Shown here: positions 60,120-64,000 of the stretch, piece after piece
Layout of the letters: each line of letters starts with the position of its first letter
How positions within the stretch are numbered: position 1 is the stretch's first letter
From: Sideroxydans sp.
GTDB taxonomy: Bacteria > Pseudomonadota > Gammaproteobacteria > Burkholderiales > Gallionellaceae
Reading direction: 5' to 3'
Length of the DNA stretch: 64,000 bases
Assembly: GCA_024636935.1 (NCBI GenBank)
Contig: JAGXGC010000019.1
Coordinates: 147,773-211,772, forward strand
Translations under genes and position numbers: made by a program
The notes under the pieces: model-generated
The model's input: only the letters and a program-made list of their open reading frames with translations
Told to the model about the DNA's origin: nothing
Database searches by the model: none

Positions 60120-60181
60120 TAGCAGGCTCCCTTTCATACATTTATAAGGCCATCTTGAATGACCGTTGTTGGCCGATCCAA

Positions 60182-60281
60182 GTCCTGAGAATATCTTACC
60201 TTCGAGCGTCCGCTCCCAAGTGAATTTCAGACATCCGTTTTTCATTTAGACACCAGACCCTGGTTAACCAAAATCGGTCAT
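60182..60281. repeat. dispersed intergenic repeat, copy 1
   Basis: gtcctgagaatatcttaccttcgagcgtccgctcccaagtgaatttcagacatccgtttttcatttagacaccagaccctggttaacc; ~90% identical to 63777-63876 by eye. Confidence 0.9.
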
Positions 60282-60910: not shown

Positions 60911-63676
60911 TCAACATTGAATAGCCTCTTGCTCCTTCGGCGGAGCAGGCGAAAAATAGCTAGCCGCAATAATCAGCAATGCGATACCAATCAGAGACAC
61001 CGTCCATAGCATCGTTCCTTTGTTCGACAGATCTACCATCATCAGCTTAACGCCAACAATGGCCAGCAGGCCGAAGCCATTGAACCAAAGTGTGCGTTGT
61101 TTTTGCTGAGACGCATACACCATCAAACTCATCGCAATGGCTGTCCACAACAAAGAGAGGCTTGCTTGCAACATCGAGGAAGCGATCAGCGTTGGTGCAT
61201 CGAATGCTATGCCGCCCCAATGATGAGTAAGGCGCGCGGCTTCCGTGCTGACCCATAGGAAAGCGATACCGTACAAGGCTGGTAGCAACTGAGTCTGCGC
61301 AATGCGCAACCATTTCCAAACAGCATACATCGCCAGCAGTTGCATCAAGTCGAACGGATTTAGCACGGGCACATAGGGCAGTACACTGCCACCACCGGAA
61401 AAATTTAAGTTGCCATAAGCCAGCCACAACGACAACAGCAATACGACAGGGGCTTGCAAGGTATCAAGATAGAGTGCGCTATGTTTCGCAAACGGCCATC
61501 GCTCCATGCGCAAGCCACGCAACGAGATCAGGATACCCATCACAGCCGATGCGCCCCACGCTAACCATGTCCACAACGTATTGCCCGGCACGAGTTGATC
61601 CGCTATCCAAGCAAGTTCGCTTCCTGCCAGCATGAGCAAGAACCAGTACCCCAAAGCATGGCGTAGCTCGTAGAAGGCTGGGACTGCATCACGCTCATGC
61701 CTATAAAGCAGACCGTATTCCACCAACAAAGCTAACGGTATTAGTAGCGACATGATTCCCGACAAAGCATGACCATACTTTCCATGAGTGTCGAATGCTG
61801 CGAAAAAGATAACGAACAAGAGCAAGGCGGAAGGTTGGCGCATGGAATTCCACTTCTGCCGCGTGCCCAGCCATTCCAAGAACACAAAACTGAGCACAAA
61901 TAAGCCTAGCTCTTCAGGAATTTTGTACGCATAGGGAGCGAAGTGCTCGATCTCGACGAAGCCACTAATAAACCACCAAAGCATTCCCCAATACAGGAAT
62001 GGTCGTGCGAATGCAGCAGTGTTGAGCTGCGCCGCAAAAGCCACTGTACTCTCAGTGCTGGCAGGTGCGGTCGCTGTGCGATGCAACAGCAAGGCACTGG
62101 CAAAAGCCGAAGTCACCACGATCAAGCAGCCTACATACAAATCGTTAAAGACTGGCATGGCGCGATTTAGTTCATGGATATGTGCGAAGAAATAGACCCC
62201 AGCCAAAACCTGTAACGCCGAGCCGGAAAGCCGCGCCAGAAAACGATCTTGCTTCACCCCCAGATACAACACGCCAAATCCTTCCAGTGTCCAGAACGCA
62301 GCGGTGAGTTGCGCATTGAATGCCAACGGAATCGCCAAGGTAAAGAAACCGATGGCAATTCCCATCAGACTCTTTTCTAACCACACAGTTTCTGCGTTCG
62401 GCTTGCGATTGATGAGCCACCACAGCAGCAGATAATAGAACCCGACGGCACAGGCATTCCACGCCAACGTCATGCTCTGCCCCAGCAGTAAATGATTTTG
62501 CAAAGCGGCAGCAGCAAGCGGCGTTCCATACAACAACATACCCTCGCTCCAACTGAGGCGGCCAGGCGCATTAAACAGATTGAACAATACGGGCGTGGCG
62601 GAATAGAGCAGGAAGAACAGAATCAGGAACGTTTCCGACACTGGAAAGTCACTCGACTGGTAGGAACGGAAGGCCCATCCCATGCCGATCACCAACGTAA
62701 AAATGAAGCCAGACATATTGAGTTCACGCCAGCCTTTGAACCAATTCACGCTGATGATGAACAGATTGAGCAGCAGGAAATAACTGAACAGTGTGATTTG
62801 ACTGCCGCCCGAATTGGCTGCCAACACTGGCGACAGGAATGCGCCGGAGATACCCAGCATCGCGAGAGAACGTGCATCCTGACGCGCCGCCAGCAATACG
62901 CACGTAACACCTATCACCGTAAAGAGAATGAATGCCAGCGTCTCGCCAATGATCTGGTATCGCGCCAACATGAAATACACCAGCAGGTACAGGATAGCGA
63001 TACCACCACCCTGCATCGCCTGACCGAACATGCGATGTTCAGATCGTTGCGCACGTTGATACCCGAAAATGCTCATGGCAATTGCCGCAAGCGCCCCCAG
63101 CATCAAGCGCACAGAAATGGGGAATAGCCCCATTTCCACCACCAACTTCAATCCCGATGCGATACCGAAGAACAAAATGATCACGCCAATTTTGGCGAGG
63201 ATATTGCCCTTGAATAATTTCGACAGCCACTCGTTCTCTGCAAGCGCATTGCTCACCCACTCCAGTTCAGACTGCCCCCTAGACATGGATCGTGTTGCAT
63301 TCGGTCTAACGGGACGACTGAAGTCAGAATCGGCAGGTAACTTGGAGAGTTCAGGATTGATAACCTTGGGAACTGGATGAATTTCTGCCACCTTATCCGA
63401 CACAACAGGTGCTAACGGCTCGACCACGGGCGCAGGTTTCCCTTCAACTATCGACTGTTGCGCAGCTTTTTGAAGCGCCACAAGTTGTGCGCTGAGTTTG
63501 CGCACTTGTTTTTCTAGCGCGTCCACGCGCCCTTCAAGCGGATTGCTACGATTTCGCCGCAGTTCACCATACATAATCCCTGATGCCAGCCCTAAGAGAC
63601 CACCAACAAGCGCTCCACTTCCAGAGCCGCTAATACCGCCAATGAACAAACCAGCGATTAGTCCGATGAACCACAT
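60911..63676 (-). CDS. DUF2339-like large polytopic membrane protein
   Basis: ~920 aa, >20 hydrophobic segments, N-terminal coiled coil VDALEKQVRKLSAQL; AAAGGAGG SD. Confidence 0.85.
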   Translation of the reverse strand: MWFIGLIAGLFIGGISGSGSGALVGGLLGLASGIMYGELRRNRSNPLEGRVDALEKQVRKLSAQLVALQKAAQQSIVEGKPAPVVEPLAPVVSDKVAEIHPVPKVINPELSKLPADSDFSRPVRPNATRSMSRGQSELEWVSNALAENEWLSKLFKGNILAKIGVIILFFGIASGLKLVVEMGLFPISVRLMLGALAAIAMSIFGYQRAQRSEHRMFGQAMQGGGIAILYLLVYFMLARYQIIGETLAFILFTVIGVTCVLLAARQDARSLAMLGISGAFLSPVLAANSGGSQITLFSYFLLLNLFIISVNWFKGWRELNMSGFIFTLVIGMGWAFRSYQSSDFPVSETFLILFFLLYSATPVLFNLFNAPGRLSWSEGMLLYGTPLAAAALQNHLLLGQSMTLAWNACAVGFYYLLLWWLINRKPNAETVWLEKSLMGIAIGFFTLAIPLAFNAQLTAAFWTLEGFGVLYLGVKQDRFLARLSGSALQVLAGVYFFAHIHELNRAMPVFNDLYVGCLIVVTSAFASALLLHRTATAPASTESTVAFAAQLNTAAFARPFLYWGMLWWFISGFVEIEHFAPYAYKIPEELGLFVLSFVFLEWLGTRQKWNSMRQPSALLLFVIFFAAFDTHGKYGHALSGIMSLLIPLALLVEYGLLYRHERDAVPAFYELRHALGYWFLLMLAGSELAWIADQLVPGNTLWTWLAWGASAVMGILISLRGLRMERWPFAKHSALYLDTLQAPVVLLLSLWLAYGNLNFSGGGSVLPYVPVLNPFDLMQLLAMYAVWKWLRIAQTQLLPALYGIAFLWVSTEAARLTHHWGGIAFDAPTLIASSMLQASLSLLWTAIAMSLMVYASQQKQRTLWFNGFGLLAIVGVKLMMVDLSNKGTMLWTVSLIGIALLIIAASYFSPAPPKEQEAIQC

Positions 63677-63776
63677 GACGCCTCCTTTGTTGCTTCTCAA
63701 TTACCCAACGATGTATTCATCAAGACAAATAAAACTTGAACTCTGACATTGCTTGGTCACAACTTCACCAATCTAC

Positions 63777-63876
63777 GTCCTGGGAATATCTTACCTTCGA
63801 GCGTCCGCTCCCGAGTGAATTTCAGACATCCGATTTTCATTTAGACATCAGTCCTTGGTTAACCCATAGCAGTCAT
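63777..63876. repeat. dispersed intergenic repeat, copy 2
   Basis: gtcctgggaatatcttaccttcgagcgtccgctcccgagtgaatttcagacatccgattttcatttagacatcagtccttggttaacccatagcagtcat. Confidence 0.9.
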
Positions 63877-63897
63877 AGAAGATTTACTATATCGGAC

Positions 63898-63964
63898 ACT
63901 CAACGTTTGAATTCACCGGCCAGCGCGGCTTTTCATGCAGGTCCGGTGGAATGATGGGTTGGGC
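63898..63964 (-). other. integron attC-like recombination site
   Basis: Minus strand GCCCAAC-CCATC-ATTCCACCGG...CCGGTGAAT-TCAAAC-GTTGAGT: matches RYYYAAC...GTTRRRY with imperfect inner inverted repeat and one extrahelical base. Confidence 0.65.
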
Positions 63965-64000
63965 AGCGGCATGTCATCTCAGTGGCCTAAACAATTCCGA

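Follow-up and report, generated by a model that had tools for sequence, protein, structure and literature searches.

A copy of a widespread attC type joined to an intergenic repeat at a contig end of a Sideroxydans-type Gallionellaceae genome

Related systems and the site at the contig end

The closest described systems are the sedentary chromosomal integrons of soil and freshwater Proteobacteria and the attC clusters lacking an integrase (CALIN), which are reported from two sites upward (IntegronFinder 2.0, PMC9024848). Ghaly et al. report families of attC sites specific to taxon and environment, and none of their 11 attC models was built from Betaproteobacteria (PMC8352920). Insertion of cassettes at secondary sites (attG) is attributed to Loot et al. 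2024 where that work is cited (PMC12901181, PMC11023631).

We identified a 67-nt attC site on the minus strand at the right edge of the 64,000-nucleotide stretch of DNA analyzed here (the window), which corresponds to positions 147773-211772 of contig C36 in a Sideroxydans-type Gallionellaceae MAG (94.9% complete). The contig has a length of 211772 bases and physically ends at base 64000 of the window, with 36 nt left between the attC and this end. The site resembles those of sedentary chromosomal integrons in its R''/R' and L''/L' boxes, extrahelical bases, length of 67 nt and orientation, and in the ORFs that end just upstream, as seen in sister copies. However, its upper stem is weakened and the cassette body lies outside the assembly. 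As in a CALIN, there is no neighbouring intI, and contig C1 of the same genome carries four attC sites within ~1.7 kb. In contrast to a CALIN, which is counted from two sites, a single attC next to the contig end is visible at this locus.

The site is very probably the attC of a minus-strand integron cassette and the last on its side; in a genome where no complete intI was detected, the locus most likely represents a stretch of a CALIN or a lone cassette. The bottom strand of the site (the + strand of the window) would fold into the two-bulge hairpin recognised by integron integrases, and IntI would recombine this hairpin at G|TT of the R box, which would allow excision or insertion of the cassette next to it. 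The gene of this cassette would lie beyond the contig end on the minus strand, and past the last attC would follow a repeat element and then the chromosomal DUF2339 gene. Mobility of the cassette would need an integrase acting in trans or one encoded on an unassembled stretch.

Table 1. Features at the right end of the window, numbered from its first base
Feature	Position	Strand	Basis
DUF2339 membrane-protein gene, adjoining attC	60911..63676	-	PF10101, E 1.5e-123
Interspersed repeat X, between attC/Z and the DUF2339 gene	63760..63858 (also given as 63768-63876)	-	75-88% copies elsewhere
Element Z (TTGAGTGTCCGATATAG...CTGCTATGGGTTA)	63859..63903	-	starts at G|TT of the attC, the crossover point of IntI
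attC, 67 nt, two-bulge hairpin between R boxes	63898..63964	-	R1 and R2 covariance-model matches
Probable 3' end of cassette gene (...SELFRPLR-stop)	63974..64000	-	translation; ORF-end position in 62/74 sister sites

Structure of the site and integron status of the genome

The 67-mer given in a preliminary description of this DNA is present exactly as written there. The ends, said to fit RYYYAAC and GTTRRRY, read GCCCAAC (R'', 63964-63958) and GTTGAGT (R', 63904-63898), and the inner arms CACCGG and CCGGTG pair, with C16 and A23 extrahelical in the cassette (top) strand. The attC identity, strand and orientation proposed there are correct. Two covariance models were built, from which sequences of this genome were excluded. 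Model R1 was built from 30 close relatives of the site. For the broader R2 we used 35 diverse attC sites, some from the intI loci of relatives and others from public contigs that match a 26-mer pattern (cassette arrays, some of them adjacent to intI). In the window search that had been suggested as a check, both matched the site strongly, with 78.8 bits for R1 (E 1.3e-23) and 62.4 bits for R2 (E 9e-16). The kilobases past 64000 that this check was also to cover are absent from the assembly.

Neither model finds a second attC within the 64-kb window, and an independent scanner that combines motifs and stem gives one match in the window, whereas 147 kb of shuffled sequence gave none. In nine intI loci of relatives, which served as the positive control, R2 identified 49 attC sites (E up to 0.01), some of them R2 training sites. 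The top scores in these loci, 57-71 bits, are comparable to that of the site studied. The two helices of R2 covary in the reference attC sites (0.244 vs 0.102 when shuffled). A scan of the last 4 kb of the window against Rfam returned chance matches below the gathering scores and nothing at the attC.

Folding of the isolated DNA is modest (z = -1.28) because changes in the upper stem break two pairs. Six of the 67 positions deviate from a consensus of 92 foreign sites; the upper-stem changes are at positions 29, 30 and 43, where pairs 26-43 and 29-40 are broken and a G-T wobble is left at 30-39. The MFE is ~-10 kcal/mol, compared with ~-19 to -21 in sister and consensus sites. As the three stem changes lower the folding energy (~-21 to ~-10), this copy may be partly decayed, and with its upper stem weakened its recombination competence, judged from sequence, is uncertain. 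We consider it possible, but rather unlikely, that this attC came from a cassette, has since decayed into a relic that no longer recombines, and was kept by chance after loss of the integrase. The broken pairs, an MFE about half that of the consensus and the lack of a complete intI in the genome would agree with this. However, the two R boxes and the two L-box arms are all intact, and the score is on a par with those of sites adjacent to intI. The same altered attC is moreover shared by two contig ends, and its duplication or movement must therefore postdate the changes.

These two ends, of contigs C36 and C32 (loci L009 and L010), share the same attC-bearing terminal 141 nt, and the ends of contigs C22 and C6 (L014 and L210) likewise share a terminal 141 nt that carries a different attC. 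Since the shared length is exactly 141 nt in both pairs, we infer an assembler run at k=141 in which two paths enter one repeat. Both pairs diverge at GGGTTA into repeat X or repeat Y after the shared 141 nt, a two-by-two arrangement. The copy identical to the site studied is at C32:64981-65047, and close copies are at C1:1932-1998 and C22:106985-107051. On the contig-end side of the site a TGA is found at 63976-63974, 9 nt before the attC in the orientation of the cassette. For this copy we infer that a cassette gene probably adjoins the attC and continues past the contig end.

Across the whole genome R2 identifies 12 attC sites (E < 1e-4) on seven contigs (C1, C3, C6, C18, C22, C32 and C36) and a doubtful one on contig C26. 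Small ORFs lie between the four sites in series on C1, and C22 carries two to four sites. The C1 cluster (C1:1400-3200; L013 1400-3200) is without intI and adjoins a fragment of an IS3-like transposase at the contig start; for three of its cassette proteins Pfam gave no match. A complete intI is absent from the assembled genome, where the best match to TIGR02249 scores 86 bits (cut-off 265). An intI is present in about half of 33 congeners. Cassette material is thus dispersed over this genome without a detected integrase.

A 217-aa tyrosine recombinase on C3 and C26 was considered as IntI and rejected, as it scores at most 29 bits to TIGR02249 (cut-off 265). This orphan recombinase is present in two copies (L011 9081-9734 and L012 12036-12689), which sit among toxin-antitoxin-like small genes and are flanked by X repeats in opposite orientation.

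A complete integron would have an intI above the TIGR02249 cut-off linked to the attC, which is not found in this assembly, and the contig ends here. No full-length intI was found, and the most that the locus can be is a CALIN, a solitary cassette or an integron with its intI in unassembled sequence; the site is most likely the distal attC of a CALIN or of a lone cassette. The earlier view of it as a terminal site agrees with this, because the inner side is without a further attC. A cassette array that begins just outside the window is plausible.

The junction with element Z

The IntI crossover point is G|TT in the R box of the attC. At this point on both C36 and C32 the R' box continues as GTTGAGTGTCCGATATAG...CTGCTATGGGTTA (element Z), followed by repeat X on C36 or repeat Y on C32. 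C22 and C6 are arranged in the same way around another attC and another copy of Z. Because the join with Z coincides with the crossover point, the sequence suggests that Z contributed the TTGAGT half of R' and the cassette the G.

Repeat X has copies of 75-88% identity on contigs C3, C26 and C22 and at 60173-60281 of the window. It is a ~109-bp intergenic repeat at loci L011, L012 and L014 that also occurs in congeners G006 and G031; it has a paralogous family, Y, and its orientation is constant relative to the neighbouring genes. The DUF2339 gene beyond it has an 88% ortholog in congener G019. No attC is identified by R2 after this gene.

It is possible, if doubtful, that a cassette integrated outside an integron at a secondary (attG-like) site in repeat Z, which would be why the last attC sites of several loci join Z at G|TT. 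Consistent with this, the sites on C36, C32, C22 and C6 read GTTGAGTGTCCG, and diverged versions are found on C3, C26 and C18. Most of 60 further congeneric attC sites precede the next cassette ORF, and six of the 60 read GTTGANNGTCYG, compared with ~0.007 expected; the attC sequences to the left differ, and two of the six reads are near-identical. A copy of Z without attC also occurs in the complete genome G028. However, free copies of Z are rare, and attC and Z are both absent from the orthologous flanks of the DUF2339 gene (G019 and G009) and of the arsC-like gene on C6 (three genomes). The comparison with these empty flanks does not discriminate between Z as a target and Z moving together with the attC. 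Additionally, C36/C32 and C22/C6 diverge at the end of Z and not at G|TT, and Z might travel as the tail of an array.

As attG insertion is described in the citing papers, the likeness is that the ends of cassettes meet non-integron DNA at G|TT. The difference is that the DNA joined here is a recurrent intergenic repeat and that the insertion is putative. A somewhat more speculative proposal is that Z, with its X or Y tails, is a recurrent landing pad with which IntI would disperse single cassettes over the chromosome of Sideroxydans-type Gallionellaceae, beyond attI alone. Were this repeat junction a genuine target, cassettes would gain a second, repeat-borne route into chromosomes.

Distribution of the attC type

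Returning to the site as the attC of a minus-strand cassette, its sequence marks it as an ordinary further copy of a nearly invariant and very widespread attC type. We identified the core 26-mer, a pattern from the right half of the attC, in at least 115 public genome stretches, compared with ~0.007 expected by chance, an estimate for 23 fixed bases in 257 Gb. Judged by record titles, most hosts are Betaproteobacteria; some Gammaproteobacteria, Acidithiobacillus, Desulfobulbaceae and MAGs labelled as other phyla also occur. Among 92 complete copies the identity averages 95% inside the attC and 26% immediately outside RYYYAAC and GTTRRRY; conservation within the search pattern is ascertained, and positions 8-30, which lie outside it, are still nearly invariant. 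A search with the 67-nt consensus recovered no phage sequence, and a literature search with the exact sequence gave unrelated papers alone among the matches listed.

The genomic context of this type is that of a cassette attC. In 62 of 74 cases a same-strand ORF of 50 aa or more ends at the attC, compared with 18% at random positions, and intI-like genes, some partial, are present in 18 of the 115 stretches. A complete integron in a genome of the same family (G035, locus L049) has this type as the fourth of its five attC sites. That the site is instead no integron feature, but a palindrome arisen by chance or a repetitive hairpin of another kind (for instance a REP element or a terminator), is extremely improbable despite the weak z-score of its isolated folding, given the covariance-model scores, the linkage to intI and to ORF ends, and homology that stops abruptly at both R boxes in 92 copies. 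One attC type, attached to unrelated genes, is thus nearly letter-identical in many orders of Proteobacteria. Like the dispersal of cassette material over the present genome, this bears on how cassettes are made and spread.

An 84% relative of the type lies between cassettes of an intI1 array on the Citrobacter freundii plasmid NZ_LC589514.1 (L318 3001-3063). This class 1 integron carries blaGES-5 and aac(6')-Ib4, and its array is partly repeated in tandem. At locus L056 Rfam identifies a group II intron just downstream of this attC type, the position expected of group IIC-attC introns.
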